Source of the DNA: Candidatus Rokubacteria bacterium 13_1_40CM_69_27
Lineage (GTDB): Bacteria; Methylomirabilota; Methylomirabilia; Rokubacteriales; CSP1-6
Assembly (NCBI GenBank): GCA_001917535.1
Contig: MNEF01000094.1
Span: forward strand, 24,482 to 88,481
Length of the DNA: 64,000 bases
Direction of reading: 5' to 3'
Position 1 is the first letter of the stretch; the number at the start of each line of letters is the position of its first letter. Below, in pieces: positions 14,969 through 57,418 of the stretch. The notes beneath the pieces were generated by a model. It saw nothing but the letters and a program-made list of their open reading frames with translations. It was not told where the DNA came from and ran no database searches. A program made the translations under genes and the position numbers.

Positions 14969-15823
14969 ATGACCTGGATAGACCCCAGCTTCCCTCGGAC
15001 GGCGAGCCCGAGCGACCTCGTCGGGCGCGTGCTGGGGCTCAACCCCGGATGGATGACGGGACCCGGCACCAACACGTACCTCGTCGGCCGGCGCGAGCCG
15101 ATCCTGATCGACACCGGCGCCGGCGTGCCCGAGTACCTGCCGCTGCTCGAACGGTACCTCGCCGAGCGCGGCTGGCGCCGGCCGTCGCGCATCCTCCTCA
15201 CGCACCGCCACGCCGATCACCTCGGCGGCGTCGCCCCGCTGCGCTCGCGTTTCGGCGGTCTGCGCATCTTCAAGATGATCCATCGCGACCCGGCGCTGCC
15301 GGACGGGATCGAGGATCTCCGCGATGGCCAGGCCGTCGAGGCCGATGGCGTGACGCTGATTCCCGTCTACACGCCCGGGCACGCCTCCGATCACCTCTCC
15401 TACTACCTCACAGAGGAGAAGGCGCTCTTCAGCGGCGACGTCGTCCTCGGGGGCTCCACGACCGTCATTCCCTCGGGCGACGGCGACCTCGCCGACTACA
15501 TGAGCTCGCTCCGTCGCCTCCAGGGGCTGGAGGTGCGGCGTATCTATCCCGCTCACGGCCCGGTGATCGAAGATGGGCCGGGACGCATCGCCGAGTACAT
15601 CGAGCACCGGCTCATGCGCGAGCGGCAGATCCTGGAAGCGCTGGGCGACGGCCTGGCGACGATCCCCGCCATGGTGAGCCGCATCTACGCCGAGGTCTCG
15701 CCGGCGCTCCACCGGGCGGCGGCGATGTCGGTCGAGTCGCATCTCAGGAAGCTCGAGAAAGAAGGGCGCGCGCGGGAGCACCTCGAGCGGGACGCGCCCT
15801 CCCGCTGGGAGCTGGTCCGGTAG
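14969..15823 (+). CDS. metallo-beta-lactamase-fold hydrolase, LACTB2/glyoxalase II-like
   Basis: 284 residues. The start ATG 14969 follows GGAG; the ORF-track extension upstream reads through REP R2 and is rejected. Zinc-site motif THRHADH is near residue 74, with TPGHASDH and the GDVVLGG aspartate further on. The C-terminal region (HRAAAMSVESHLRKLEKEGRA) is a helix-turn-helix-like segment seen in LACTB2-type proteins. LACTB2 homologues act as endoribonucleases or thioester hydrolases, so the activity here is open. Its stop abuts, with no spacing, the stop of the convergent amidotransferase gene. Confidence 0.8.
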   Translation: MTWIDPSFPRTASPSDLVGRVLGLNPGWMTGPGTNTYLVGRREPILIDTGAGVPEYLPLLERYLAERGWRRPSRILLTHRHADHLGGVAPLRSRFGGLRIFKMIHRDPALPDGIEDLRDGQAVEADGVTLIPVYTPGHASDHLSYYLTEEKALFSGDVVLGGSTTVIPSGDGDLADYMSSLRRLQGLEVRRIYPAHGPVIEDGPGRIAEYIEHRLMRERQILEALGDGLATIPAMVSRIYAEVSPALHRAAAMSVESHLRKLEKEGRAREHLERDAPSRWELVR

Positions 15824-16618: not shown

Positions 16619-18361
16619 ATGTCGCTCGACTCGGCCGTTGCCCAGCAATCCGCGCCGCTCCACACGCCGACCCACACGGTGCAGGCCATCGGCCTGCGCT
16701 GGGCCGTGGCCGCCGGCCACGCGCTGGCGTCGGAGGCGGCCGCTCGGATCCTCAACGCCGGAGGCAACGCGATCGACGCGGGCGTGGCCGCCGGCATCTG
16801 TCTGGGGGTCGTCCACCCCGACATGGTCTCCTTCGCCGGCGTGGCGCCGATCCTGGTGCACGTGGCGCGTACCGGCGAGACCTGGCAGGTCTCCGGCGTC
16901 GGACCCTATCCGCGGGCGTCGACGGCCGAGTACTTCCAGAAGCGCCACGGCGGCCAGATCCCGCCCGGCCTCGCGCGCACGGTGGTGCCGGCGGCGCCGG
17001 ACGCCTGGTGCACGGCGCTCGAGCGCTGGGGAACGATGTCCTTCGCGGAGGTCGCCGCGGCGGCCATCGAGCATGCCGAGCACGGCTTTCCCATCTCCAA
17101 CTTCTCCGCGTATCAGATGACGGCCAACGCCGACAAGTACCGGCGGTGGCCGACGTCGGCGGCGCTCTACCTCAAGGACGGGCGGCCGTACCGGGCCGGC
17201 GAGGTCCTCGTGCAACGCGAGCTGGGCGAGACGCTGCGCCGGATGGCGGCGGCGGAGCAGGCGGGCGGGAGCCGCGCCCGGGGCATCCGCGCCGCGCGCG
17301 ACGAGTTCTATCGCGGCGAGACCGCCACGCGCATCGCCGAGTTCCACCGCCGCGAGGGCGGTCCCCTGACGCTCGCCGATCTCGAGGACTTCGGCGTGGA
17401 GGTGGCGCCGGCGCTCCGCACGACGTTCGGTCGCTACGAGGTCGCCGCCTGCGGCTACTGGTGCCAGGGTCCCGTGCTGCTCCAGATGCTCAACATGCTC
17501 GAGGGCGCGGACCTCAAGGCGCTCGGCCACAACTCGGCCCCCTACCTGCACCGCCTCGTGGAGACGATCAAGATCGCGTTCGCCGATCGGGACGCCTACT
17601 ACGGTGATCCGAAGCTCGTGAAGATCCCCGAGGGCCTGCTCTCGAAGGCCTACGCGGCCAAGCGGCGCCAGCTGGTCGGAGAGCGCGCGTGGATCGAGAT
17701 GCCTCCGCCGGGCGATCCCGAGCGGGCGGGTACCAGAGCGGGCCGCGAGGCCGTGCCGATGGCCGGCGGCTCCGATGCGCTCGACACGAGCTACGTCGCC
17801 GTCGTCGACGCGGAGGGCAACGGCTTCTCGTCGACGCCCAGCGATCCCAACACCGACTCCCCGGTGGTGGCGGGCGTCGGCTGCGTGGTGTCGCCCCGAG
17901 GTTCCCAGGGGTGGCTCGACCCCGCGCATCCGAGCGTGGTGGCGCCGGCCAAGCGGCCGCGCCTGACGCCGGCGCCGGCGATGGTGCTGGCCGACGGCCG
18001 GCTCCTCATGCCCTTCGGCACGCCGGGCGGGGACGTGCAGCAACAGGCGATGCTCCAGGTCTTCCTCAACGTCACCGTCTTCGACTTGCCGCTACAGAAG
18101 GCGGTGGAGATGCCGCGCGTCGCCTCGCGGAGCTTCCCCGACTCGTTCTGGCCGCACGTCATGTCACCGGGCAAGCTCGAGGTCGAGGGGCGCATCCCCC
18201 AGGAGACGCGCGAGGCCCTGGCCGAGCGGGGGCACGAGGTCGCCATCTGGCCCGACTGGGAGTGGCGCGCCGGCGCCGTCTGCGGGGTCAAGGTCGGCCC
18301 CGACGGTACGCGCTGGGCCGGCGCCGACCCTCGCCGCGGCGCCCACCCGATCGCCCGCTGA
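16619..18361 (+). CDS. gamma-glutamyltransferase family protein
   Basis: About 580 residues from ATG 16619; an in-frame ATG at 16601 is an alternative and neither has a clear ribosome site. The Ntn-hydrolase autoprocessing point is probably the Thr of LDTSYVAVVDAEGN, aligned with the catalytic Thr of TTHYSVVD in E. coli Ggt. Upstream, GHALASEAAARILNAGGNAIDA is the classic N-terminal motif. The glycine pair of the small subunit is seen as PFGTPGGDVQQQ. No Sec signal is evident, unlike secreted Ggt enzymes, so it may be a cytosolic homologue such as a cephalosporin acylase- or YwrD-like protein. Divergent from the PuuD-like gene. Confidence 0.85.
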   Translation: MSLDSAVAQQSAPLHTPTHTVQAIGLRWAVAAGHALASEAAARILNAGGNAIDAGVAAGICLGVVHPDMVSFAGVAPILVHVARTGETWQVSGVGPYPRASTAEYFQKRHGGQIPPGLARTVVPAAPDAWCTALERWGTMSFAEVAAAAIEHAEHGFPISNFSAYQMTANADKYRRWPTSAALYLKDGRPYRAGEVLVQRELGETLRRMAAAEQAGGSRARGIRAARDEFYRGETATRIAEFHRREGGPLTLADLEDFGVEVAPALRTTFGRYEVAACGYWCQGPVLLQMLNMLEGADLKALGHNSAPYLHRLVETIKIAFADRDAYYGDPKLVKIPEGLLSKAYAAKRRQLVGERAWIEMPPPGDPERAGTRAGREAVPMAGGSDALDTSYVAVVDAEGNGFSSTPSDPNTDSPVVAGVGCVVSPRGSQGWLDPAHPSVVAPAKRPRLTPAPAMVLADGRLLMPFGTPGGDVQQQAMLQVFLNVTVFDLPLQKAVEMPRVASRSFPDSFWPHVMSPGKLEVEGRIPQETREALAERGHEVAIWPDWEWRAGAVCGVKVGPDGTRWAGADPRRGAHPIAR

Positions 18362-38860: not shown

Positions 38861-40729
38861 ATGGCATGTGACTCGCGGAACAAGCTTGTCTACGTGCTCC
38901 TCGTCTTCTTCGCTCTCGCCCTCCTCGGCTCGGCGCTCCCCGTCGACGCGCAGGACGCCGCCAGGGAACCCGCCTATCGCGCGTTCCCGGTGCTCGGCTC
39001 GCGGCTCGCCGTGTGGGCGGTGGCCCAGCTTCACCTCAACTTCGCCGCGTTCATCCTGGGCTGCCCCATCTTCGCCGTCATCATCGAGATCATCGGCTGG
39101 CGGACCCGCGACCAGCGCTACGACTGGCTCGCCCACGAGTTCGTCAAGCTCACCTTCGCCGCGTTCTCCACCACCGCGATGCTGGGCGCCCTGCTCCTCT
39201 TCCTCTTCGTCGGCTACTATCCGCGGTTCTGGGCGTACCTGACGTCCATCTTCTTCCCCACCTACTGGGTCTACGCCCTTCTCTTCTTCGGCGAGACCTT
39301 CATCGTCTACCTCTGGTACTACGGCTGGGAGTGGTTGAGCGGGTCGCGCAAGTGGATCCACGTGAGCCTGGGCGTGCTGGCGAACCTGGTCGGCACCGCG
39401 ATCCTGGTCGTCGCCAACTCCTGGGTCACCTTCATGATCTCGCCGGGCGGCATCGACGAGTCCGGGCGGCTGGTCTCCCTGTGGAAGGCCATCAACAACT
39501 ACACGTGGATGCCCATCAACGTCCACCGGCTCATCGCCAATATCGTCTTCGGCGGCACCATCGCCGCCGCCTATGCCGCCTTTCGATTTCTCAGCGCCGA
39601 GACGCAGGAGGAACGGGCCCGCTACGACTGGATGGGTTACGTGGGCAACTTCGTGGCCGTCTCCGCGTTCATCGTGCTGCCCTTCGCCGGCTACTGGCTG
39701 GGACGCGAGATCTACGCCTTCAACCAGACGATGGGCATCACGATGATGGGCGGCTTCATGTCGTGGCTCTGGATCGTCCAGGCCATCCTCATCGGCATCC
39801 TGTTCCTCGGCTCCAACTACTATCTCTGGCTGGGCATGGAGCGTATCCCGGGCTCCGAGCGCTACCGCAAGTTCGTGCCGCCCATGCTCCTCATCCTCAC
39901 CATCGGCTTCATGATCTGGGCCACGCCTCGCACGATGGTGATCACCTTCGACGAGGCGCGGGCCATGGGCGGCACCCACCATCCCGTGCTCGGCTTCTTC
40001 GGCGTCATGTCGGCCAAGAACACCGTCGTGAACCTCATGATCCTCACCACCTTCCTGTCCTATATCCTCTACCGGCGCGCCAACCGCATCTCCACCAAGC
40101 CCTGGGTGAGGACCGGCATGGGGGTGCAGTGGGCGGCCTTCGCCGTGGCCGCGGTCATCGTGGTCTTCTTCGGCGTCTACGGCTACTTCGTGGACTCCCT
40201 CACCCGCATCGGATTCTCGGTGTGGCAAGTCCTGGCCGTGCTGACCTGCATCGTGATCGTGATGGCCATCGACATCCCGATGTTCCGGGGCGCCCGCTCC
40301 ACCGGCACCATCCGGTGGGGGACCATTGCCACCCGCTCCCAGTACGTGCTCATCCTGCTCGCGGTGACCTTCACGTGGCTGATGGGACTGATGGGCTTCG
40401 CCCGCTCGGGCATCCGCCAGCACTGGCACGTCTACGGCGTGCTGCGCGATACGTCGGTGGACGCGGTGACGCCGGCGCTGGGCTACGCCGCCAACGTGAT
40501 CACCATCGTGACGATCGTGTTCTTCGCCCTGGTGACCTTCATCTTCTGGCTGGGCGGGCTCGGTGAGCGGGGCGGGCCCAAGGGCCACGCCCCGGCCCCG
40601 GTGATCGCCGGCGGCAGCGATTCGTCGGAGGGGGCGACGTCACAGGCGCGCCCGCAGGGCGCGACGGCCCCCTCCGAGGCCTCCCCCAGGATCGATTGCG
40701 CCGGCAAAGCCGGCGCTCGGAAGAGCTAG
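38861..40729 (+). CDS. CydA-like cytochrome bd-type oxidase subunit I, atypical
   Basis: 622 residues, about ten or more membrane segments, with a signal-like extra N terminus (VYVLLVFFALALLGSA). Alignment by eye to CydA: RLAVWAVAQLHLNFAAFILG matches the region of the first heme b ligand (His58 here), FFGETF the region of the proton-path glutamate, AILVVANSWVTFMISP the GWMQNP region and MPINVHRLIANIVFGG the second heme ligand (His222). The quinol-oxidation GRQPW motif is not recognisable (YWLGREIYAFN in its place). No CydB follows; three c-type cytochrome genes do. This resembles bd-family branches reported from Nitrospirota that lack the quinol site. The last ~35 residues are encoded by REP R7. 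Confidence 0.75.
   Translation: MACDSRNKLVYVLLVFFALALLGSALPVDAQDAAREPAYRAFPVLGSRLAVWAVAQLHLNFAAFILGCPIFAVIIEIIGWRTRDQRYDWLAHEFVKLTFAAFSTTAMLGALLLFLFVGYYPRFWAYLTSIFFPTYWVYALLFFGETFIVYLWYYGWEWLSGSRKWIHVSLGVLANLVGTAILVVANSWVTFMISPGGIDESGRLVSLWKAINNYTWMPINVHRLIANIVFGGTIAAAYAAFRFLSAETQEERARYDWMGYVGNFVAVSAFIVLPFAGYWLGREIYAFNQTMGITMMGGFMSWLWIVQAILIGILFLGSNYYLWLGMERIPGSERYRKFVPPMLLILTIGFMIWATPRTMVITFDEARAMGGTHHPVLGFFGVMSAKNTVVNLMILTTFLSYILYRRANRISTKPWVRTGMGVQWAAFAVAAVIVVFFGVYGYFVDSLTRIGFSVWQVLAVLTCIVIVMAIDIPMFRGARSTGTIRWGTIATRSQYVLILLAVTFTWLMGLMGFARSGIRQHWHVYGVLRDTSVDAVTPALGYAANVITIVTIVFFALVTFIFWLGGLGERGGPKGHAPAPVIAGGSDSSEGATSQARPQGATAPSEASPRIDCAGKAGARKS
40625..40720 (+). repeat. REP-like composite element R7, translated at the 3' end of the bd-like gene
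   Basis: B type with an enlarged loop (CGGAGGGGGC ... GCCCCCTCCGA) then A (GCGCCGGCAAAGCCGGCGC), lying inside the open frame and giving the tail SSEGATSQARPQGATAPSEA. The usual position of B is just after a stop, so the native stop has probably been lost or overwritten. Confidence 0.85.
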
Positions 40730-40985
40730 TGTTCCGTCTGGGGAGTCATGTTAAGAGCCCGCCAGCACGCGGCGCCGGGGCCGACGGGCATGTGCGGCAG
40801 GGGTCGACGGGATCCGTTCCCGGCCCGTGGCGACGGACCCCGCGTGCCCAGGTGGAGCCCAGCCGCAGCGCGGCAGCGGACGCGTGCCGCGTGGTCCCGC
40901 GATCCCTGCCGTGCGTGCCCGTCGGCCCCGCCGGCAGCGGCGCGAGCGCGGCGATCGTTAACATGACTTTCCGAACGGAATACTA
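40727..40985. repeat. long foldback element E1 (~259 bp)
   Basis: The whole gap between the bd-like gene and the diheme cytochrome gene is one imperfect palindrome. The outer 28 bases match in inverse orientation at 23 of 28 positions (AGTCATGTTAA / TTAACATGACT perfect at the inner end), and inner blocks such as GGGGCCGACGGGC recur inverted. CTAG stands at both ends (40726-40729 and 40983-40986) and supplies the upstream TAG stop. On the minus strand it carries the GACCACG ... ACGGATC core (40896 to 40811). Mirror 72-residue ORFs on both strands reflect the palindrome and are not genes. Confidence 0.8.
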
Positions 40986-40988
40986 GTT

Positions 40989-41825
40989 ATGCGCGTGCCG
41001 GTCGGCGTCAAGGTCGGGGTGTTCGCCCTGGCGGTGATGGGGAGTTACAGCTACTTCGCGAACTCCATTCCCCAGATCGAGTCCAAGCCGCCGCAGGAGC
41101 TCAGCCTCGAGGGCGGCCAGGTGACGACGGCGCAGCTCGTGAAGGCGGGCGAGGAGATCTTCAAGACCAAGGGGACCTGCGAGGTGTGCCACCGCATCGG
41201 CCAGAAGGGGACGCGGGCGCCGGACCTGGCCGGCGTCGGCTCTCGGGCCACCGCCCGCGCCGCCGAGCGTGCGACCAAGGGAAAGCCCCTGCGGCCGGGC
41301 ATGACGGCCAAGCAGTACCTCCTCGAATCCCTGCTCGATCCGGGCGCCTACGCGGTGGAGGGCTACCCGCCGATCATGCCGGCCGTCGACAAGCCGCCCA
41401 TCGGCCTGAACCGCTCCGAGGTGTGGGCGCTCGTCGCCTTTCTCCAGTCGCTCGGCGGCACCGTCGACGTCACCCTCAACGACATTCCCGCCACCGTGGG
41501 CGCCGGGGGCGCGGGCGGCGGCGGGGCTGCGGCCGAGGTCAAGCTGCCCGGCGATCCCAAGGCCGGTGAGGCGATCTTCGCCGGCAAGGGCGGATGCATC
41601 GCCTGCCACAAGGCGGGCAAGGTGGGAGCGGCCCAGGTCGGCCCCGACCTCTCGCAGATCGCCAAGATCCAGACGCCCGACTACATCATGAAGAAGATCC
41701 TCGACCCGGCCGGGATGGGCACCGTGGCCGGCTATCCCAAGGGCGTGATGCCGCCCACCTTCGGCCAGACGCTCACCGCCAGGGAATACACCGATCTGGT
41801 ATCGTTCCTGCTGACGCTCAAATGA
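40989..41825 (+). CDS. membrane-anchored diheme cytochrome c
   Basis: 278 residues. An N-terminal uncleaved helix (VGVKVGVFALAVMGSYSYFA) anchors two class I cytochrome c domains with CEVCH (64-68) and CIACH (203-207), linked by a Gly/Ala hinge (GAGGAGGGGAAAE). Candidate distal methionines are in GYPPIMPAV and GVMPPTF. Its ATG follows foldback E1 by three bases, and the next gene overlaps it as ATGA. It probably passes electrons to or from the bd-like subunit. Confidence 0.9.
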   Translation: MRVPVGVKVGVFALAVMGSYSYFANSIPQIESKPPQELSLEGGQVTTAQLVKAGEEIFKTKGTCEVCHRIGQKGTRAPDLAGVGSRATARAAERATKGKPLRPGMTAKQYLLESLLDPGAYAVEGYPPIMPAVDKPPIGLNRSEVWALVAFLQSLGGTVDVTLNDIPATVGAGGAGGGGAAAEVKLPGDPKAGEAIFAGKGGCIACHKAGKVGAAQVGPDLSQIAKIQTPDYIMKKILDPAGMGTVAGYPKGVMPPTFGQTLTAREYTDLVSFLLTLK

Positions 41826-42574
41826 GCTTCCTCCGCTCCCGCTTCGTCCAGGCGGCGCTCATTCTCGTCCTCTCCGCCGTCATCCTCCGCTTCGGCATCC
41901 GGCCCCCGGCCCCGTGGAGTGTGTTCACGCTCTACATGGCCGTCGTCTTCCTGGCCGTGCTGATCTTCGTCTCCTCCGACAGCGACTCCTGGCGCGGCTT
42001 CATCCGCCCCATCCGCTCCACGCTGGTCGATCCCGACCAGCGCGTCCTCCGCTCCGCGCTGGTCGTGGTGATCCCGCTGCTGCTCGGCTACTACGCCTAT
42101 ACGCAGGCGGCGGCCAAGCCCCAGGCGCCGGCTGAGCTGCGCGCCGTGCACCCGGCGCCGCCGGACACCATCCAGTTCCGGGGCAAGCAGATCAACATCT
42201 CCGGCGCCGAGAACCCGCTGCGGAAGGACCAGGCGAGCCGTCAGAAGCACGTGGCGGCCGGCGCCGCCCTCTACATCCGCAACTGCGTCTACTGCCACGG
42301 CGACAATCTCGACGGGCAGGGCCACTTCGCCAGGGGCTTCAACCCGCCGCCGGCGAACTTCCAGGACCCGGGCACGATCGCCATGCTCCAGGAGGCCTAC
42401 CTCTTCTGGCGCATCGCCAAGGGCGGGCCGGGGCTGCCGAGGGAATCCACGCCGTGGAACTCGGTCATGCCGTCCTGGGAGGACCGCCTGACCGAGGAGC
42501 AGATCTGGCAAGTCATCATGTACCTGTATGACGCGACCGGCCAGCAACCCCGTCGCTGGGAGACCGCCCACTGA
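41822..42574 (+). CDS. membrane-bound monoheme cytochrome c
   Basis: 250 residues. Three hydrophobic segments near residues 8-24, 33-51 and 79-95, then a periplasmic cytochrome c domain with CVYCHGDNLDGQGH (heme site 155-159) and a distal Met in WNSVMPSW. The domain resembles the cytochrome c subunits of oxidase and nitrite-oxidoreductase-like clusters. Start and stop overlap its neighbours (ATGA; TGATG), so the block is co-translated. Confidence 0.88.
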   Translation: MSFLRSRFVQAALILVLSAVILRFGIRPPAPWSVFTLYMAVVFLAVLIFVSSDSDSWRGFIRPIRSTLVDPDQRVLRSALVVVIPLLLGYYAYTQAAAKPQAPAELRAVHPAPPDTIQFRGKQINISGAENPLRKDQASRQKHVAAGAALYIRNCVYCHGDNLDGQGHFARGFNPPPANFQDPGTIAMLQEAYLFWRIAKGGPGLPRESTPWNSVMPSWEDRLTEEQIWQVIMYLYDATGQQPRRWETAH

Positions 42575-44226
42575 TGCGCGCCGGCGTCTGCGCATCGGGC
42601 CCGAGCGCCGCGGAGCGCGCCTGCCCCTGCTCGACCACGAGCCCGGCGCCGTTCGTCGCCGCCGCGCGATCCCATCTCCGCTGCCACGCGCGGTCCACCT
42701 CGGCGGGAACGGGTCTCGCAGGGGCAGGCCGCGCCCCGCGCCGCCACTCACGACGCGCGTCCACCGGCGCGGCACTCGGTGCGGCGGTCGCCCTGCTCGC
42801 GAGCATCGTCGTCGACGTGGCGCCGGCGCTCGCCCAGGCGGGGGATGCGGCGGCCGGCCAGGCGGTCTACCAGAGGAAGTGCATGGGCTGCCACGGCGAG
42901 AAGGGGGACGGCAAGGGACCCGCCGCCGAGCTCCTCGATCCCAAGCCGCGCGACTTCACCTCGGGGATCTACAAGATCCGCACCACGTCCACCAGGATGC
43001 CGAGCGACCAGGACCTCTTCCGCGTCCTCACCGAGGGCATGCCGGGAACCTCGATGCCACCGTGGGCGGTTCTCCCGGAGAGGGACCGGTGGAACCTGAT
43101 CGCCTACATCAAGTCCTTCGCCTCCGAGAAGTTCAAGGAGGCGCCCAAGAAGCTCGAGCTGCCCAAGGAGGTCGGCGCGTCCGCGGAGTCGATCAAGCGC
43201 GGTCGGGAGATGTTCGAGGCGATCGAGTGTAACAAGTGCCACGGCGCCGACGGGCGGGCGGACGGGCCTTCACGCCCCGAGCTCAAGGACGAGTGGGGGC
43301 AGCCCATCAAGCCGGCGAATCTCACCAAGCGGTGGACCTTCCGCGGTGGGCCGAGCCGGGCCGCCATCGCCACGCGGCTCGCCGCCGGGGTGCTCGGCAC
43401 GCCCATGCCGGCCTTCCTCGACAGCGTGGAGAAGCCGGACGACATCTGGCACCTCGCCAACTACATCGCCTCGCTGGGCCCGGCGGCGCCGGCTTACGGC
43501 ACGCTCCTGACGGCGACGGCCGTCGGCGAGGCGATTCCCGACGACCCCCAGGCCGAGTTGTGGAAGAAGATGGTCGGGCAGAACATCCCGCTCATGGGCC
43601 AGGTGATCGCCGATCCGCGCAACTTCAATCCCTCGATCGACCTGGTCACCGTGCGGGCCGCGTACAACGACCGGGAGATCGCCTTCCACCTGACGTGGGA
43701 CGATCCCACCGAGTCCAAGCCCGACGGCAAGCAGACCTTCGCCGACGCGATCGCGCTCCAGTTCCCGCCCACGCTCGAGCCGGGCGGCGAGCGACCCTAC
43801 GTCCTCATGGGGGATGCTGCGGAGGCGGTCTATCAGTTGCGCTGGGACAGCGGCAAGGGCGTGAGCGAGGTGACGGCCAACGGGCCCACCAGGGTGAGGG
43901 CGCTGGCCGGCTCGGAGGCGACGGGGAAGGCCGCCTACGCGAACGGGCAGTACCAGGTCGTGATCAAGCGGGGACTCGGGGCCCAGGACGCCAGCCGCCC
44001 GACGTTCCGGCCGGCCGTCTTCACGCCCATCGCCTTCCAGGCCTGGGACGGTGGCGCCGGCGAGACGGGCACCAGGCTCTCCTTAACCTCGTGGTACTAT
44101 CTGCGCCTGGAGGAGCCGCAGTCGAAGGCGCGCTTTGTGATACCTCCCGTGGTGGCCCTTCTTGCGCTGGGGGCAATGCTCGTGATCGTGTGGGCGGCGA
44201 ACCGGCGCGGTCTCAGCGTTTCGTGA
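42574..44226 (+). CDS. dicytochrome c with ethylbenzene-dehydrogenase-type heme b domain; N-terminal extension from foldback E4
   Basis: 550 residues. Residues 1-~67 are encoded by a foldback element and look unlike protein (Cys, Arg, Ser-rich). A normal signal peptide then starts (GAALGAAVALLASIVVDVAPALAQ), so a downstream start may be used. Two cytochrome c sites follow, CMGCH (103-107) and CNKCH (219-223). Residues ~285-505 match the EB_dh heme b domain found in gamma subunits of DMSO-reductase-family enzymes (IDLVTVRAAYNDREIAFHLTWDDP). A C-terminal helix (VIPPVVALLALGAMLVIVWAA) anchors it. No molybdopterin subunit is in the window. Confidence 0.82.
   Translation: MRAGVCASGPSAAERACPCSTTSPAPFVAAARSHLRCHARSTSAGTGLAGAGRAPRRHSRRASTGAALGAAVALLASIVVDVAPALAQAGDAAAGQAVYQRKCMGCHGEKGDGKGPAAELLDPKPRDFTSGIYKIRTTSTRMPSDQDLFRVLTEGMPGTSMPPWAVLPERDRWNLIAYIKSFASEKFKEAPKKLELPKEVGASAESIKRGREMFEAIECNKCHGADGRADGPSRPELKDEWGQPIKPANLTKRWTFRGGPSRAAIATRLAAGVLGTPMPAFLDSVEKPDDIWHLANYIASLGPAAPAYGTLLTATAVGEAIPDDPQAELWKKMVGQNIPLMGQVIADPRNFNPSIDLVTVRAAYNDREIAFHLTWDDPTESKPDGKQTFADAIALQFPPTLEPGGERPYVLMGDAAEAVYQLRWDSGKGVSEVTANGPTRVRALAGSEATGKAAYANGQYQVVIKRGLGAQDASRPTFRPAVFTPIAFQAWDGGAGETGTRLSLTSWYYLRLEEPQSKARFVIPPVVALLALGAMLVIVWAANRRGLSVS
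42576..42774. repeat. foldback element E4 inside the cytochrome gene start
   Basis: Imperfect palindrome of ~200 bases beginning at the cytochrome ATG. The innermost arm CCTGCCCCTGC pairs perfectly with GCAGGGGCAGG; outer arms (GCGCGCC ... GCGCATCG) pair with gaps. The core runs from GACCACG (42633) to ACGGGTC (ending 42715), 83 bases, and is closely similar to the E2 core (CGACCACGAGC-CGGCG-CGTT-GTCGC ... GCGCGGTC ... AACGGGTC). Confidence 0.7.
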
Positions 44227-45008: not shown

Positions 45009-45746
45009 ATGCTGAACTGGTGGCTGCCGGAAAACGTCTCGACCTACGGCGAGGAGATCGACTGGCTGTTCCACCTGATCTACTACATCACGGGGGCGGT
45101 GTTCATCATCGTGACGGTCGCCTTCCTGTCGTTCATCGTCATCTACCGCGACCGCCCGGGGCGCCGGGCGCGCTACACCCACGGCAACACCCCGCTGGAG
45201 ATCGTCTGGACCGTGGTGCCGGCGCTGATCCTGGTGGTGCTCACGTTCCTCAGCGTGCCGGCCTGGTCCAAGATCAAGATGACGATGCCCCAGACGGACT
45301 TCGTCGTGCAGGTGACGGGCAAGCAGTTCAACTGGCAGGTCACCTATCCGGGGCCCGACGGCCAGTTCGGCACCGCCGACGACAAGACCTTCCTCGACGA
45401 GATGCACGTGCCGGTCGGCAAGCCGATCCGGATCAACCTCAAGTCGCAGGACGTCATCCACAGCTTCTTCGTGCCCCAGTTCCGGTTCAAGCAGGACGCC
45501 GTGCCCGGGCGCGAGATCCCGCAGTGGTTCGAGGTCACCAAGCCCGGCCAGTACGAGGTGCCGTGCGCCGAGCTCTGCGGCTTCGGACACTCGGGCATGC
45601 GGGCCTGGATCTACGCCCACTCCGCGGAGGACTACACCAAGTGGGCGGCCGAGAACCTCCGGGCCGGGGCGGCGGCCGCCGCCCCCGAGACGAAGCAGGA
45701 GCCGGAGAAACCAGCCGCCAAGACGGGAGGGAGAGCCAAGCAATGA
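45009..45746 (+). CDS. ctaC: cytochrome c oxidase subunit II (second aa3 oxidase)
   Basis: 245 residues, two N-terminal helices, CuA motif CAELCGFGHSGMRAW near residue 180 and an Ala/Lys/Glu-rich tail. Unlike the first operon's subunit II it has no fused cytochrome c. Its end overlaps subunit I as ATGA. Confidence 0.95.
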   Translation: MLNWWLPENVSTYGEEIDWLFHLIYYITGAVFIIVTVAFLSFIVIYRDRPGRRARYTHGNTPLEIVWTVVPALILVVLTFLSVPAWSKIKMTMPQTDFVVQVTGKQFNWQVTYPGPDGQFGTADDKTFLDEMHVPVGKPIRINLKSQDVIHSFFVPQFRFKQDAVPGREIPQWFEVTKPGQYEVPCAELCGFGHSGMRAWIYAHSAEDYTKWAAENLRAGAAAAAPETKQEPEKPAAKTGGRAKQ

Positions 45747-47497
45747 GCGCCATCAGCGCTACGGCTCACGCGCACACCGCTCACGCGGCGCACCACGAGG
45801 TGGGCTTCGTGCGGACCTACATCTTCTCGACCGATCACAAGATGATCGCGCGCCAGTTCCTGTTCCTGGGGCTCTTCATGATGATCATCGGGGGCCTGCT
45901 GGCGCTGATGGTCCGCTGGGAGCTGGCCTGGCCAGAGACGCCGGTGCCCGGCCTCGGCTCGATCCTCACCGAGACCGGCGGCATACTGGAGCCATCGCAG
46001 TACAACATGGCCTTCACCATGCACGCGACCCTCATGATCTTCTTCGTCATCATGCCGATCCTGGCCGGCGCTTTCGGCAACTTCTGCATCCCGCTCATGA
46101 TCGGGGCCCGGGACATGGCCTTCCCCTTCCTCAACATGCTGTCCTTCTGGGTGGCCGCGCTCTCGGGCGTCCTGATGCTCAGTGGTTTCTTCGTCCCGGG
46201 CGGGCACGCGGCCGCCGGGTGGACCTCCTACGCGCCGCTCAGCGCGGTGCCGGAGTACACGGGGACCAACTGGGGGCAGAACCTGTGGTGCATCAGCCTC
46301 TTCGTCCTCGGTGTCTCGTCGATGATGGGGGCGATCAACTACATCACGACCATCATCAACATGCGGGCGCCCGGGATGAAGCTCTTCCGCATGCCGCTGG
46401 TGGTGTGGTCGCTGTTCATCACCGCCATCCTGCTGCTCCTGGCCCTGCCCGTGCTCACCTCGGGCGTGGCCATGCTCCTCTTCGACCGCACGCTGGGCAC
46501 GAACTGGTTCAAGCCGTCGGGCGGCGGCGAGCCGCTGCTCTGGCAGCACCTGTTCTGGTACTTCGGTCACCCCGAGGTCTACATTCTCATCCTGCCCGCC
46601 ATGGGCATCGCCTCGGAGATCCTGCCCGTCTTCGCGCGCAAGCCGATCTTCGGCTACCACGCCATGGCCTTCTCGATGATCGCCATCGCCTTCCTCTCCT
46701 GGGTGGTCTACGGCCACCACATGTTCGTGAGCGGCATGAACCCGGCGCTGGGTATGTCGTTCATGGTGACCACGATGATCATCGCCGTCCCGTCGGCCAT
46801 CAAGACCTTCAACTGGTTGGGCACGCTGTGGGGCGGCCGCATCCAATTGAAGGTGCCGATGCTGAACGCGCTGGCCTTCGTGTGGATGTTCGTCATCGGC
46901 GGGCTCTCGGGCATCTTCATGGCCTCGACACCGGTGGACATCTACATCCAGGACACCTACTTCATCGTGGCCCACATCCATTATGTGGTCTTCGGCGGCT
47001 CGATCTTCGGCGCCTTCGCGGCCATCTACTACTGGTTCCCGAAGATGTTCGGCCGCCTGACGAACACGGCGCTGGGGCATCTTCACTTCTGGCCGACCTT
47101 CGTCTTCTTCAACCTCACCTTCTTCCCCATGCACATCATCGGCGTGGGCGGCCAGATGCGGCGCATCTACAACCCGCTCCAGTACGAGTTCCTCCAGCAC
47201 CAGCAGCACTGGAACGTCTTCATCACGTACTCGGCGCTGCTGCTGGGCCTCTCCCAGATCCCGTTCGTGATCAACTTCTTCTGGTCGCTCTTCGCCGGCC
47301 AGAAGGCGCCCCTGAATCCCTGGAACTCGAACACGCTCGAGTGGACGGCGCCCTCGCCCCCGCCGCACCTGAACTGGGGGCCGACGGTGCCGACCGTGTA
47401 CCGCGGGCCCTACGAGTACACCTCGCCGGAGTCGAGAGAGGACTTCCTGCCGCAGTCGCAGCCGCCGCTGGTGCGTGCCGGGGCCGCGCGACACTGA
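45743..47497 (+). CDS. ctaD: cytochrome c oxidase subunit I (second aa3 oxidase)
   Basis: 584 residues. Heme a ligand region MHATLMIFF, GHPEVYILILPAMGIASEI with the D-pathway glutamate, the Tyr-His crosslink region, GHHMFVSGMNP (CuB) and AHIHYVVFGG (heme a3/a ligands). A His/Ala-rich N terminus (TAHAHTAHAAHHE) precedes the first helix. Unfused to subunit III, unlike the first oxidase. ATG overlaps the subunit II stop. Confidence 0.96.
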   Translation: MSAISATAHAHTAHAAHHEVGFVRTYIFSTDHKMIARQFLFLGLFMMIIGGLLALMVRWELAWPETPVPGLGSILTETGGILEPSQYNMAFTMHATLMIFFVIMPILAGAFGNFCIPLMIGARDMAFPFLNMLSFWVAALSGVLMLSGFFVPGGHAAAGWTSYAPLSAVPEYTGTNWGQNLWCISLFVLGVSSMMGAINYITTIINMRAPGMKLFRMPLVVWSLFITAILLLLALPVLTSGVAMLLFDRTLGTNWFKPSGGGEPLLWQHLFWYFGHPEVYILILPAMGIASEILPVFARKPIFGYHAMAFSMIAIAFLSWVVYGHHMFVSGMNPALGMSFMVTTMIIAVPSAIKTFNWLGTLWGGRIQLKVPMLNALAFVWMFVIGGLSGIFMASTPVDIYIQDTYFIVAHIHYVVFGGSIFGAFAAIYYWFPKMFGRLTNTALGHLHFWPTFVFFNLTFFPMHIIGVGGQMRRIYNPLQYEFLQHQQHWNVFITYSALLLGLSQIPFVINFFWSLFAGQKAPLNPWNSNTLEWTAPSPPPHLNWGPTVPTVYRGPYEYTSPESREDFLPQSQPPLVRAGAARH

Positions 47498-52690: not shown

Positions 52691-54589
52691 ATGTACAAGC
52701 ACATCTACGTTCCGGTGGACAACTCGGAGTACTCGAACCGGGCGATCGACCTGGCCGTCGAGCTGGGTCAGGCGTTCGGCGCGAAGCTGACGGGTTGTCA
52801 CGTGTACGCCGCCCGCTTGCACGACTACCGGTTCAAGCAGATGGAGTACACGTTGCCGGAAGAGTACAAGGACGAGCAGGAGCTCGAGCGCCAGCGAAAG
52901 ATCCACGACTCCCTCATCGCCATGGGGCTGCAGCTCATCTCCGACTCCTATCTCGACGTGATGGCCCGGAAGGCCGAGGGGGCCGGGCTCGGCTTCGAGC
53001 GCAAGATGATGGACGGCAAGCACTACAAGGCGCTCATCGAGGACGCCCGGGCCACCGGCTACGACCTCGTCATCATGGGCGCCCTCGGCATGGGCGCCGT
53101 CAAGGACAGCCAGCTGGGGTCGGTGACCGAGCGCTTCGTGCGTCGGGTCTCCACGGACACGCTCGTCGTCCGCAACCACGACCCGCTGCGGGACCAGCAG
53201 GGCGCGATCGTGGTCGGACTCGACGGCTCGCCCCAGTCCTTCAACGGCCTCAAGGTCGGCATCGCGCTTTCAAAATCGCTGGGCCGGCCCCTGCAGGCGG
53301 TGGCTGTCTATGACCCCTATCTTCATTACGCGATGTTCAATGGCATCGTCGGAGTCCTGAACGAGAAGGCGTCCAAGATCTTCCGCTTCAAGGAACAAGA
53401 ACAACTCCACGAGGAGATCATCGATACGGGACTGGCCAAGATCTACCAGTCGCATCTGGAAATCGGCCGCAAGCTCGCCGCGGAGGATGGGGTCGATCTG
53501 GCGATCACGCTGCTCGATGGGAAATGTTTCGAGAAAATCCTCACCTTCGCGCGCAAGGAGCAGCCCTGGCTGCTCATCCTGGGCCGCATCGGCGTCCACT
53601 CCGACGAGAGCGAGGTGGACCTCGGCTCCAACACCGAGAACCTCCTGCGGCTGGCGCCCTGCAACGTGCTGCTGACGGGCGGCACGTTCTACCCGCCGCT
53701 TGACGTGAAGGCCGAGGAGATCATCGCGTGGACGGAGGAGGCCGAGGCCCGCATGGAGCGTGTGCCGCCCCAGGTCAAGGGCGTGGCCCGTACCGCCCTC
53801 CTCCGCTATGCCATCGAGCAGGGCCACACGGTCATCACCAACAAGGTCATCGACGAAGCGATGGCGATCTTCATGCCCACCCGCATGGCCGAGAAGATGC
53901 AGATCATGGCCGAGGACCTCGCCGTGGCCAGCCTCCGCAAGGAGCAGCAGGCGGCCACCGCCATCTGCTCGATCTGCGGCTATACCGTCAAGGGGCCCAA
54001 CGCCGTGGTGGCGTGCCCGGTGTGCCGGGCGGGGGCGGACAAGTTCCAGGTCATCACACGCGACGTCGTCGAGACGATCGCGGCCCAGGAGGGCGGCATC
54101 GGGGAGGAGGAGCCGATGCCGGGCGTGCCGGTGAAGTGGTCGGCCGACGCCCGCGACGCGCTCCGCGAAGTGACCGACGCCTACCTGCGCCGCCGGGCCA
54201 AGGCCCGGGTCGAGAAGTACGCGCGGTCGAAGAAGATCCCCGTGATCACCTGTGCGCTGGCCCTGCCCATGATCGAGGAGACGGTCGGCCGGGAGAAGCT
54301 CGGCGCCGGGTGGGACACACTGCTGGCCAAGACGAAGTTCGAGCCGGCGGCGGCGCCGGCAGCCGACACCAGCGGCGCGTTCGCCTGGACCGAGGAGGCG
54401 GCGGCCCGCCTCAACCGGGTGCCGGCCGGCTTCATGCGCGACATGACGCGCGAGGAGATCGAGCGGGTTGCCACCGACAAGGGTCTCACCACGATCGACC
54501 TGACGACCTGCGAGGAGGGGATCGGCCACGCGCGGGAGACCATGAACGAGGTGATCGCCGGGTACGTGTCGAACAAGAAGCCCCGGTAG
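52691..54589 (+). CDS. multidomain protein: two universal-stress domains, rubredoxin-like site and three PCP_red-like repeats
   Basis: 632 residues from ATG 52691 with GGGGGAGAG upstream. Residues ~1-155 and ~170-330 are two UspA-like domains (HIYVPVDNSEYSNRAIDLA; GAIVVGLDGSPQSFNG; GALGMGAVKDSQLGSVTE). From ~345 comes a PCP_red-type repeat (ITWTEEAEARMERVPP-like start, ending VITNKVIDEAM), then a metal site with two CxxC pairs (CSICGYTV ... CPVCRAG, ~418-440), a second repeat (VKWSADARDALREV ... VITCALALPMIEE) and a third (FAWTEEAAARLNRVPAGFMRD). PCP_red is the small helical domain at the C terminus of light-independent protochlorophyllide reductase subunits. No photosynthesis gene is near. 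It may sense or bind a redox cofactor; the function is unknown. Confidence 0.8.
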   Translation: MYKHIYVPVDNSEYSNRAIDLAVELGQAFGAKLTGCHVYAARLHDYRFKQMEYTLPEEYKDEQELERQRKIHDSLIAMGLQLISDSYLDVMARKAEGAGLGFERKMMDGKHYKALIEDARATGYDLVIMGALGMGAVKDSQLGSVTERFVRRVSTDTLVVRNHDPLRDQQGAIVVGLDGSPQSFNGLKVGIALSKSLGRPLQAVAVYDPYLHYAMFNGIVGVLNEKASKIFRFKEQEQLHEEIIDTGLAKIYQSHLEIGRKLAAEDGVDLAITLLDGKCFEKILTFARKEQPWLLILGRIGVHSDESEVDLGSNTENLLRLAPCNVLLTGGTFYPPLDVKAEEIIAWTEEAEARMERVPPQVKGVARTALLRYAIEQGHTVITNKVIDEAMAIFMPTRMAEKMQIMAEDLAVASLRKEQQAATAICSICGYTVKGPNAVVACPVCRAGADKFQVITRDVVETIAAQEGGIGEEEPMPGVPVKWSADARDALREVTDAYLRRRAKARVEKYARSKKIPVITCALALPMIEETVGREKLGAGWDTLLAKTKFEPAAAPAADTSGAFAWTEEAAARLNRVPAGFMRDMTREEIERVATDKGLTTIDLTTCEEGIGHARETMNEVIAGYVSNKKPR

Positions 54590-54775
54590 GCGTCGCGGTG
54601 GTCGGCGCACCGGGGTCTGGGGTCGGCGTGGGGTCCGGCGACCACGAGCGCGGCGGCGTTGGTCGCGTCGCGTGATCCATACGATGGTGTGCGCGCGGTC
54701 ATCCTCGCCAAGAAACGGGTCGGCGGACCCCACGCCGACCCCAGACCCCGACGCCCCGACACCGCAGCGCTGCCC
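54590..54775. repeat. foldback element E2 with perfect 27-base arms
   Basis: In the 224-base gap before the radical SAM gene. Arms 54611-54637 and 54724-54750 are perfect inverted repeats (GGGGTCTGGGGTCGGCGTGG...), and similarity continues outward with gaps to the upstream stop codon and to about 54775. The core runs from GACCACG (54640) to ACGGGTC (ending 54721), 82 bases. A smaller hairpin (GCGACCA ... TGGTCGC) lies inside the core. No other gene is seen in the gap. Confidence 0.8.
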
Positions 54776-54813
54776 GCGGTCTTCCTTCGACCCTCGCCAA
54801 CGCTCTCAGCATC

Positions 54814-56127
54814 ATGGCTGATCCGTACACCGCGTACAGCGTGTCCTGGAACCTCACGCAGCGGTGCAACCTGGAGTGCGCGCACTGCTACATGTCGGCC
54901 TTCGCCGGGGCCGACACGCGCGGCGAGCTCGGGACCGCGGAGTGCCGACGGGTCATCGACGAGATCGCGCTCGTCAACCCCAACGTCTTCCTGATCCTCA
55001 CCGGCGGCGAGCCGCTGCTGCGGCGGGACATCTGGGACATCGCCGCCTACGCCGCCGAGAAGCGCTTCACGACGGTCTTGGGGACGAACGGGGTGCTCCT
55101 CGGCGAGAGGGAAGCGCAGCTGATGCGCCGGCACGGCGTGCTGGGCGCTTCGATCAGTCTCGACTCCACTGATCCGGCCCGGCACGACGCCTTCCGCCAC
55201 CTGGCCGGGGCGTGGCAGGGAGCGGTCCGCGCGACGAAGGTGCTCGCGGAGGCGGGGCTCGACTTCTCTCTGCACATGTCCGTCACCGACTGGAACGTGA
55301 ACGAGGTCCCCGCCATGATCGACCTGGCCCGGGCGCTGGGCGCCCAGGTGCTCAACCTCTTCTTCCTGGTGCGCACCGGGCGGGGCCGGGACCTCACCGA
55401 CATCGACGCCGCGGCCTACGAGCGGATCCTGACATACCTGGCCGAGGCCCAGGGGACGGGGGCCCGGACGGGCTTCGAAGATCCCTGGTCGGCGCCGGTG
55501 GGGCGGGCCGACGGCCTGTTGATCCGCGCCAAGTGCGCGCCCCACTTCCGCCGCATCCTCTGGCAGCGGAACCCCGAATCGCCGCTGCTCCGGAACTACG
55601 CCCACGGCTCGTGTCCAGCAGGCAAGTACTACTGCCGCATCACGCCCGAAGGCGACGTGACACCGTGCCCCTACATGCCCGTGGCGGCCGGCAATCTCCG
55701 CCGTCAGTCATTCGCCGACCTCTGGCGCCAGGCCTCCGTCTTCGCCGATCTCCGAGAGCCGAAGCTGGGCGGACGCTGCGGCGTCTGCGAGTTCTCCAAG
55801 ATCTGCGGGGGCTGCCGCTGTCGCGCCTACGCGACCTCCGGCGATTATCTGGCCGAGGATCCCGCGTGTGGGTACCAGCCCGGCGCTCTCGGCGGGAAGG
55901 TCATCGAGCTGCCGGCCACGCTCACGTTCGGCCTGCCGGTCGCCTACGAGCTGGCCTGGGAGGAGGCGGCGCGCGCGCGGCTTCAGGCGATCCCGTCCTT
56001 CGCCCGCGGGATGGTGGTGAAGGCCGTGGAGGCGTACGCCCGCAGACGCGGCGAGACCGTGATCACGCCCGCGCTGCTCGCCGACGTGCGCGCGCGCTGG
56101 GGTGGTCGCTTCCGGCCCCAGGCATGA
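54814..56127 (+). CDS. radical SAM/SPASM protein with C-terminal PCP_red-like domain (NirJ/AhbD-like)
   Basis: 437 residues. The radical SAM Fe-S site is CNLECAHC (Cys 18, 22, 25) inside SWNLTQRCNLECAHCYMS, the start typical of NirJ/AhbD heme-modifying enzymes; TGGEPLLR follows. The SPASM region has CPAGKYYCRITPEGDVTPCPYMP and a Cys-rich CGVCEFSKICGGCRCRAYA for auxiliary clusters. The last ~55 residues (ELAWEEAARARLQAIPSFARGM ... VITPALLADV) are a PCP_red-like repeat matching those in the upstream protein. Heme or peptide modification is possible; no heme d1 genes are present. Confidence 0.83.
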   Translation: MADPYTAYSVSWNLTQRCNLECAHCYMSAFAGADTRGELGTAECRRVIDEIALVNPNVFLILTGGEPLLRRDIWDIAAYAAEKRFTTVLGTNGVLLGEREAQLMRRHGVLGASISLDSTDPARHDAFRHLAGAWQGAVRATKVLAEAGLDFSLHMSVTDWNVNEVPAMIDLARALGAQVLNLFFLVRTGRGRDLTDIDAAAYERILTYLAEAQGTGARTGFEDPWSAPVGRADGLLIRAKCAPHFRRILWQRNPESPLLRNYAHGSCPAGKYYCRITPEGDVTPCPYMPVAAGNLRRQSFADLWRQASVFADLREPKLGGRCGVCEFSKICGGCRCRAYATSGDYLAEDPACGYQPGALGGKVIELPATLTFGLPVAYELAWEEAARARLQAIPSFARGMVVKAVEAYARRRGETVITPALLADVRARWGGRFRPQA

Positions 56128-56558
56128 GTGGGACCGATCGGTTCCGTCTCGCCGCGCGGGCCTACTTCGCCTACGGCGTCGTCTACTGGGTCGGCGGGGT
56201 CTACCTCCTCGCTCACGGCGTCGGCGTGGCCGGCGGTGCCGCGGCCGGGCAGAGGGCCTCCCTCGGACTGTGGGCCGTCATGGGGCTCGTCCTCGTCTTC
56301 CTCGTCCCTTTTCTCTTGCGCCATCCGCGCGCCTGGTTCGAGCGCTGGATCGTCTCGCGCCGGGACTTCGCCCGGATCCTGGCCCTCTTCATGGCCTTCC
56401 GGGCCTTCAAGGTGGGCGAAGTCGCGCTCCGCTCCGGTGGCGGGTCGGTGGCGGCGCCCTGGGGTGTCGTCACGTTCCAGGCCGGGGCCGTGGTCTTCTT
56501 CTTCGTGACCGTGGTGGCGCTCGTCTGCGTCGCGCTGGCGGCCTGGGGGGACGAATGA
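56124..56558 (+). CDS. hypothetical four-helix membrane protein
   Basis: 144 residues, overlapping both neighbours (ATGA at each end). Four hydrophobic segments (YFAYGVVYWVGGVYLLAHG; LWAVMGLVLVFLVPFLL; ILALFMAFRAFKVGE; FQAGAVVFFFVTVVALVCVALAAWG). The loop RHPRAWFERWIVSRRDFAR is basic. No family recognised. Its place between the radical SAM protein and the Mrp-type ATPase suggests a shared pathway. Confidence 0.65.
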   Translation: MSGTDRFRLAARAYFAYGVVYWVGGVYLLAHGVGVAGGAAAGQRASLGLWAVMGLVLVFLVPFLLRHPRAWFERWIVSRRDFARILALFMAFRAFKVGEVALRSGGGSVAAPWGVVTFQAGAVVFFFVTVVALVCVALAAWGDE

Positions 56559-57418
56559 AGCGCTACAAGGACGTCGCGGGCGATGGCGGCTCGAACGTCG
56601 TCGGCCAGGTCGCCGCGCAGCAGGAGCGGCTGCGTCAGCGCTTGGCTGGGGTCCGCTCGATCCTGGCCGTCGTTTCGGGCAAGGGCGGAGTGGGCAAGTC
56701 CACCCTCACCGCGGGTCTGGCCGGCTGCTTCGCCGCCGCCGGCTGGCGCGTGGGCGTGCTGGACGCCGACCTCAACGGCCCCACGATGGCCAAGATGCTC
56801 GGCGTCCGCGGCCGCCGGCTGGTGATGGCCGGCGACGCCGTCGAGCCGCCCGTGTCCGCGCGGGGCATCAAGGTGATGTCGATGGACCTGCTGCTCGCCT
56901 CGGACTCGACCCCGCTCACGTGGCAGGCGCCGACGCAGGAGGAGGCGCACACCTGGCGCGGCAGCATGGAGGCGCAGGCGCTGCGGGAGTTTCTGGCCGA
57001 CACCAACTGGGGCGGGCTGGATGTCCTGGTGATCGACCTGCCGCCCGGCACTGACCGGCTGGCCACCGTCGCTTCCCTGGTGCCCAGGCTGGCTGGAACG
57101 ATCGTCGTCACCATCTCCTCGGACGTCTCGCAGCTCGTCGTCAGGAAATCGATCACGGTGGCGCGCCAGGCCCAGGCGCCCGTGCTCGGGCTCGTGGAGA
57201 ACATGGCGGGGCTCTTCCCGGGCCCCGACGCCGCTGTGCTGGCCGAGGAGGCGGGGATCCCGTTCCTGGGCAGCGTGCCCTTCGATCGCGCGCTCGCCGC
57301 GGCGACGGATCGGGGCGATCCCTTCATCGTCTCGCACGCGGGCAGCGAGGCCGCGCGTCAGCTGACCGCGATCGCCACCAAGATCCGCGCCGCGATCACG
57401 CATCCCGCGAGCGTCTGA
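56555..57418 (+). CDS. Mrp/NBP35-type P-loop ATPase without C-terminal CxxC
   Basis: 287 residues. Deviant Walker A SGKGGVGKST near residue 45, switch regions DADLNGPTMAKMLG and DLPPGTDR, typical of Mrp/ApbC Fe-S carrier proteins. The family's CxxC after VENM is absent here (VENMAGLFPGPD), so cluster bridging by those cysteines is not possible. It may serve as a partner-loading ATPase for the upstream Fe-S enzyme. Last gene of the respiratory block. Confidence 0.87.
   Translation: MKRYKDVAGDGGSNVVGQVAAQQERLRQRLAGVRSILAVVSGKGGVGKSTLTAGLAGCFAAAGWRVGVLDADLNGPTMAKMLGVRGRRLVMAGDAVEPPVSARGIKVMSMDLLLASDSTPLTWQAPTQEEAHTWRGSMEAQALREFLADTNWGGLDVLVIDLPPGTDRLATVASLVPRLAGTIVVTISSDVSQLVVRKSITVARQAQAPVLGLVENMAGLFPGPDAAVLAEEAGIPFLGSVPFDRALAAATDRGDPFIVSHAGSEAARQLTAIATKIRAAITHPASV

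Follow-up and report, generated by a model that had tools for sequence, protein, structure and literature searches.

Introduction

What would a radical S-adenosylmethionine (SAM) enzyme, a universal stress protein (USP), a small membrane protein and a P-loop ATPase be doing together beside a block of respiratory genes, and why should the first two both carry a domain of the PCP_red family? The question is raised by four adjacent genes of Candidatus Rokubacteria bacterium 13_1_40CM_69_27, an uncultured bacterium with a 3.7 Mb genome. They lie in the stretch of 64,000 nucleotides analysed here (positions 24482-88481 of contig C40, GenBank MNEF01000094.1), which is called the window below; positions are those of the window, and genes are on the plus strand unless stated otherwise. 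An earlier note, made from the letters of the DNA, had suggested a tetrapyrrole- or Fe-S-related maturation or sensing system for the respiratory block, with PCP_red as a recognition module joining two of the proteins. It appears that the respiratory partner can be named: the gene set pairs almost one-to-one with a gene for a bd-like oxidase subunit (bdA) and its cytochrome c genes. Together, the domain make-up of the set, its conservation across phyla, and its tight co-occurrence and linkage with bdA suggest that the set is the dedicated accessory system, most likely acting in cofactor maturation, of a complex of the OR-N type made up of the bd-like subunit and cytochromes c, a reading to which we assign a probability of about 0.45.

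The four genes and their domains are as the earlier note had described them, with exact coordinates and in agreement with Pfam. The first (52691-54589) encodes a USP-PCP_red protein of 632 amino acids, and the second (54814-56127) a radical SAM/SPASM enzyme of 437 amino acids with a C-terminal PCP_red domain, identified by Pfam, NCBIfam models and a tree. The third (56124-56558) encodes a mostly helical membrane protein of 144 amino acids, and the fourth (56555-57418) an Mrp/NUBPL-type P-loop ATPase of 287 amino acids without a C-terminal CxxC motif. The last three genes do overlap one another, by 4 bp at each junction. All four stand near the end of a co-directional block that starts with bdA.

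Association of the gene set with a bd-like respiratory module

PCP_red and the bd-like protein were counted in whole genomes, 736 in all, from three phyla. Both were present in 110 genomes, PCP_red only in 13, the bd-like protein only in 3 and neither in 610, so that the co-occurrence on which the earlier note had set store was found. Given in the same order, the counts are 57/7/2/29 for Methylomirabilota (n=95), 32/4/1/310 for Acidobacteriota (n=347) and 21/2/0/271 for Planctomycetota (n=294). In the genomes that also served for the CtaA and CoxA controls described below, PCP_red is associated with the bd-like gene at p=1.5e-15, and in the 35 Methylomirabilota outside the window's order (8/3/0/24) at p=7e-6; these p-values, like the others in this text, were computed as if related genomes were independent and serve better as measures of effect size. 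Outside the window's order, carriers and non-carriers among the Methylomirabilota alternate inside families. The bd-like gene was also present in 20 of the 20 genomes that were reached through USP-PCP_red loci of other lineages. Extra PCP_red copies and extra bdA paralogues gave a mixed picture when compared and were not used as evidence.

The genes are also linked in relatives rather than scattered, the outcome that the earlier note had named as fatal to its idea. A PCP_red gene lies on bdA's contig, at most 6.7 kb away, in 29 of the 32 Acidobacteriota that have both, and the common order in this phylum, where readable, is Act-type genes, bdA, three cytochrome genes and USP-PCP_red, followed further on by the ATPase, a Zn-ribbon-PCP_red protein and the radical SAM-PCP_red enzyme. 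The NC10 genome CSP1-5 (G008, locus L038) has an uninterrupted series of USP-PCP_red, radical SAM-PCP_red, membrane protein, ATPase, Zn-ribbon-PCP_red, bdA and two cytochrome c genes. In Calditrichaceae, the radical SAM gene directly follows bdA and its cytochromes. One genome (G065, locus L046, C28:85000-104000) has a divergent PCP_red set, whose radical SAM enzyme and ATPase are 47% and 49% identical to their nearest relatives, adjoining a bdA that is 80% identical to that of the window; the association thus seems to have outlived the replacement or rapid change of the set.

These orders indicate that the set is larger than four genes, as the Zn-ribbon-PCP_red protein is usually included. 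In the window's genome, this protein is encoded at the end of contig C80 (L039, 7084-7575), the contig on which a genome-wide profile scan placed the fifth PCP_red copy of the genome (60.6 bits). Across phyla, the Zn-ribbon-PCP_red protein has a conserved CPF motif before PCP_red, whose Cys-Pro is reminiscent of heme regulatory motifs.

The bd-like subunit is encoded at 38861-40729. Its match to PF01654 (67 bits) and its His and Glu of the heme-ligand type, with H58, E145 and H222 aligning with invariant residues of six canonical CydA proteins, place it in subunit I of the cytochrome bd superfamily. It is followed by genes for a cytochrome c with two heme c domains (40989-41825; the gene order is the same in relatives), for a membrane-anchored cytochrome c (41822-42574) and for a cytochrome c with an EB_dh/type II heme b domain (42574-44226, start codon uncertain). 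The complex is probably of the OR-N kind and CydAA'-like, as judged from its cytochrome c partners and, in Acidobacteriota, from the position of bdA after Act-type genes. In the parts of two accounts that were available, OR-N proteins figure as CydAA' oxygen reductases that putatively oxidise cytochrome c and whose composition and function are unconfirmed (PMC10839748), and OR-N5 types are placed directly after alternative complex III genes in Nitrospirales (PMC12342949). The likeness therefore consists of a bd-like CydA with cytochrome c partners and, in Acidobacteriota, a bdA directly after Act-type genes; in turn, those parts of the same accounts do not mention the set of PCP_red, USP and radical SAM proteins (PMC10839748, PMC12342949).

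The aa3-type oxidase as an alternative partner

After the bd-like module (38861-44226), the block continues with coxB, coxA, ctaA, ctaB, two coxC, coxD, DUF983 and plastocyanin-like genes (the cox names are taken from sequence). It might be supposed, then, that the true client of the set is the aa3-type cytochrome c oxidase, or the insertion of heme A, and that the bd-like gene is a passenger of a shared respiratory island, particularly as cox genes are direct neighbours of the set in the window, Rokubacteria, Poribacteria and Tectomicrobia. However, in controls with respiratory neighbours, PCP_red gave p=0.60 with CtaA and p=0.42 with any CoxA (p=0.04 with ferrochelatase), against 1.5e-15 for bdA, and in three genomes (G008, G005 and G014) the set adjoins bdA in an inspected region that contains no cox gene. 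We regard this alternative as very improbable. As neither CtaA nor CoxA at large is associated with PCP_red, a partnership with heme A or the cox genes was dismissed as the principal link.

The window contains a second CoxA homologue on the minus strand (1049-2590; G000:C40:25530-27071), which is 47% identical to the CoxA encoded at 45740-47497.

Domain composition and distribution

The USP-PCP_red protein has the domain order Usp, Usp, PCP_red, rubredoxin-like, PCP_red, PCP_red, with Pfam scores of 136.5 bits for Usp (two stretches), 94.2 bits for PCP_red (three stretches) and 34.3 bits for RUBY_RBDX (cut-off 26.5 bits). Its PCP_red copies lie at 53729-53860 (G000:C40:78210-78341; 44.5 bits), at 54137-54256 (30.0 bits, taken alone just under the PF08369 cut-off of 32.5 bits; kept in relatives) and at 54386-54514 (45.5 bits). 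The radical SAM protein scores 76.6 bits for Radical_SAM, 39.8 for SPASM and 46.5 for PCP_red, the last domain lying at 55957-56088 (50.6 bits in the genome-wide scan). Both proteins are thus above the curated PF08369 cut-off, and the profile search upheld the three copies in the stress-domain protein and the one at the end of the radical SAM enzyme that the earlier note had read. In the rubredoxin-like domain (residues 426-453, 53966-54049), which has the form CxxC...CxxC, the cysteines C426, C429, C442 and C445 are invariant in eight relatives; judged from the sequences, this domain is dispensable to the protein. The small membrane protein matched no Pfam family, and its AlphaFold2 model (predicted local distance difference test, pLDDT, 88) matched no fold in the PDB; its gene is kept adjacent to that of the ATPase in relatives.

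According to profile and structure-sequence matches, PCP_red is the C-terminus of the B subunit (BchB/ChlB) of dark-operative protochlorophyllide oxidoreductase (DPOR). That subunit is the source of the domain, but only its C-terminal module of 45 residues is held in common: the catalytic nitrogenase-like part is absent from the window's proteins, and the USP-PCP_red protein reaches 58.4 bits with the DPOR subunit B model (TIGR01278) against a cut-off of 490. No reports of PCP_red outside DPOR were found in the open-access literature, and among 14 control genomes the domain exceeded the cut-off in one only, a cyanobacterium.

A search for relatives of the USP-PCP_red protein, with one genome per species, yielded 267 proteins, the closest named ones being from Candidatus Rokubacteria (85-89% protein identity). 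The best 80 of the 267 belong to Rokubacteria/NC10, Poribacteria, Planctomycetota, Acidobacteria, Tectomicrobia/Entotheonella, TA06 and Calditrichaceae, and the set recurs in at least seven phyla. Since the architecture recurs in loci of several phyla, and since PCP_red was so rare in the control genomes, the arrangement of PCP_red domains is not due to chance. Nearly all complete copies of the USP protein retain three PCP_red domains; two are found in three proteins of the Tectomicrobia type (L108, L119, L128). The C-terminal PCP_red is present on the intact orthologous radical SAM enzymes of these loci. In Planctomycetes, the USP protein of one genome (G706) carries a single PCP_red and the radical SAM enzyme three; another genome (G519) has one on each of the two proteins, whose genes are adjacent. 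In every lineage examined, then, both partners carry PCP_red, in copies of 3+1, 1+3 or 1+1, and its number seems to shift between the two while each keeps at least one. This indirectly supports the idea that PCP_red is a module common to both proteins, which might act in recognition.

In Poribacteria (L102), a CopD/HemJ-like membrane protein of 165 amino acids is encoded before the radical SAM enzyme (14994-15491) and an additional PCP_red protein of 137 amino acids after it (16892-17305).

The radical SAM enzyme

By its profiles, CxxxCxxC motif and SPASM cysteines, the enzyme belongs to the radical SAM/SPASM superfamily; 12 cysteines are invariant in 24 relatives. The best-scoring NCBIfam models are AhbD (306 bits), NirJ2 (303 bits) and TIGR04053 (256 bits), followed at a distance by mycofactocin (160 bits) and PqqE (115 bits). 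Poribacterial, Calditrichota and Acidobacterial copies score similarly, most of them at least 100 bits above the peptide-modifying families. In the tree, the enzyme's clade is a separate one (99/99 support) and has AhbD and TIGR04053 as its neighbours. The reactions of NirJ, AhbC and AhbD take place on the side chains of tetrapyrroles (PMC7242693). With AhbD, NirJ/NirJ2, AhbC and TIGR04053, the window's enzyme has in common the layout of radical SAM and SPASM cysteines; it differs from them in its separate clade, extra PCP_red, scores below the cut-offs and location beside the bd-like module.

AhbD being the top NCBIfam model, could the enzyme simply be AhbD, which makes protoheme by the siroheme route? 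Its 306 bits are well below the AhbD cut-off (TIGR04545, 500 bits) and below the 444-520 bits of AhbD-type proteins of the phylum, its clade is separate, and the window's genome has a ferrochelatase. This identity was rejected on the score, the tree and the ferrochelatase, and can hardly be correct. The scores for NirJ (TIGR04051; 201 bits, cut-off 515) and TIGR04053 (cut-off 395) are likewise too low.

It is also conceivable that the protein works like peptide-modifying SPASM enzymes: its target would be a side chain in one of the module's proteins, such as a cytochrome or the bd-like subunit, and PCP_red would serve for recognition. An accessory domain common to an enzyme and its partner proteins would fit substrate recognition, and the best-matching SPASM enzymes of solved structure are PqqE and SkfB. 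However, that Foldseek ranking rests on a low-confidence model, as the predicted structure of the radical SAM-PCP_red protein is poor (pLDDT 64.5) and the fold search gave generic radical SAM matches only; the model is for the same reason uninformative on where PCP_red docks. Moreover, the scores of 306, 303 and 256 bits for the AhbD, NirJ2 and TIGR04053 models against 115 and 160 for PqqE and mycofactocin, as well as the position of the clade, point away from peptide modification, which we consider unlikely.

The P-loop ATPase

With its GKGGVGKS P-loop and 215 bits for PF10609, the ATPase is a member of the NUBPL/ParA family. It resembles the Mrp, ApbC, MrpORP and NUBPL ATPases in these two features and differs in that it has neither a separate N-terminal domain nor CxxC and scores under the MrpORP and ApbC cut-offs. 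In Mrp/ApbC carriers, the C-terminal CxxC binds a bridging cluster. The possibility that the set serves Fe-S cluster assembly, delivery or repair, with the ATPase carrying clusters to the radical SAM enzyme or to respiratory subunits, is suggested by the NCBIfam names of Mrp/NUBPL proteins, which denote Fe-S carriers, and by the CxxC that nearly all orthologues from NC10, Poribacteria, Tectomicrobia, TA06 and Calditrichota keep at that place. Nonetheless, the ATPases of the window and its family lack the motif although the rest of the set is retained, and a bridging Fe-S cluster is thus seemingly unneeded by the system. The Fe-S branch of the earlier proposal is weakened accordingly, and we hold it to be quite improbable.

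Proposed function

It is reasonable to ask what such a set might do for the bd-like complex. Tetrapyrrole chemistry is what we infer from the kinship of the radical SAM enzyme and the source of PCP_red, and it is in this form that the tetrapyrrole part of the earlier proposal persists. The radical SAM enzyme, as kin of the heme-modifying AhbD/NirJ/TIGR04053 lineage, would alter a tetrapyrrole cofactor or a nearby group; PCP_red, which this enzyme has in common with the Zn-ribbon protein and with the USP as an ATP-binding scaffold, might be a module for docking or for presenting the substrate; the P-loop ATPase could drive the hand-over; and the small membrane protein may tie the set to the membrane at the site of oxidase assembly. 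Because the window's genome has a ferrochelatase, a modified heme would be a likelier product than plain heme. A more specific proposal is that protoheme is converted by the set into a modified heme not known before, perhaps of chlorin or dioxo type, for the bd-like active site: the radical SAM-PCP_red enzyme would modify it, the USP- and Zn-ribbon-PCP_red proteins would hold it and hand it over, and the ATPase and membrane protein would help its insertion. This we put forward as possible but doubtful; if true, PCP_red would be a general tetrapyrrole-handling module outside photosynthesis.

Alternatively, the set might regulate or protect the bd-like complex, adjusting or shielding it when oxygen is low or under stress. 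The ATP-binding USP would lead such a module, with the radical SAM enzyme and PCP_red taking part in sensing or signalling. Both Usp domains read with the conserved nucleotide motif G-2x-G-9/10x-G(S/T) in the alignment. UspA proteins encoded beside respiratory and other clusters of Nitrospira marina increase along with these at low O2, which the authors take as regulation (PMC8115632), and a regulatory role therefore stays a candidate. However, a sensor would hardly need both a tetrapyrrole-type radical SAM enzyme and an ATPase of its own, which are kept across phyla, and Pfam found no DNA-binding or kinase domain among the four proteins. On balance, a regulatory role is somewhat unlikely.

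Several points weigh against a dedicated system for cofactor maturation. Relatedness among genomes, as mentioned, limits the p-values to effect sizes. PCP_red occurs without the bd-like gene in a few genomes, often incomplete. Of the exceptions to the pairing, G210 has a true BchB (548 bits, TIGR01278), the acidobacterial G142, where the search gave no bd-like gene, has an orphan PCP_red protein of 91 amino acids (G142:C1:58049-58168; L211, 7987-8262), and in G089 and G339 fragments of the bd-like gene lie at contig ends. With close CoxA orthologues (at least 70% identity), PCP_red is associated more weakly (p=7e-5 for all 95 genomes, p=0.09 for those not of the window's order), and the set stands beside aa3 oxidase genes as well in all the Poribacteria and most of the Methylomirabilota that were inspected. 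The radical SAM enzyme is under every equivalog cut-off. Finally, the role of PCP_red within DPOR itself is not settled in the accessible papers, and the proton donor of DPOR, Asp274, is outside PCP_red (PMC4157233).

Accessory genes tied to one oxidase type are familiar, with CydDC for cytochrome bd, SCO, CtaA and CtaB for aa3, and CcoGHIS for cbb3, and in this respect the set resembles them. To our knowledge, no oxidase accessory system is made of USP, PCP_red and radical SAM parts. The gene set is apparently undescribed so far; no earlier description was found in the open-access literature, a scope outside which most subscription journals fall. The set would extend PCP_red, a domain familiar from the synthesis of chlorophyll, to a role in organisms that have none, and would make a possible new heme modification testable. 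OR-N bd-like enzymes are common in nitrifiers and uncultured bacteria, with subunits, function and oxygen affinity unconfirmed according to the available parts of their accounts (PMC10839748, PMC12342949). As the set is nearly obligate for one OR-N-like lineage, its proteins are direct candidates for the missing steps of maturation or regulation, and the pair of USP-PCP_red and radical SAM-PCP_red genes may serve as a genomic marker for the bd-like respiratory complex.

In the planctomycete G706 (L239, C1:226000-245900), the bd-like module and USP-PCP_red stand directly before genes for the beta subunit, chaperone and alpha subunit of the type II dimethyl sulfoxide reductase family (NXR/Nar-like). 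With such genes following it, the bd-like complex may not always serve O2 reduction.

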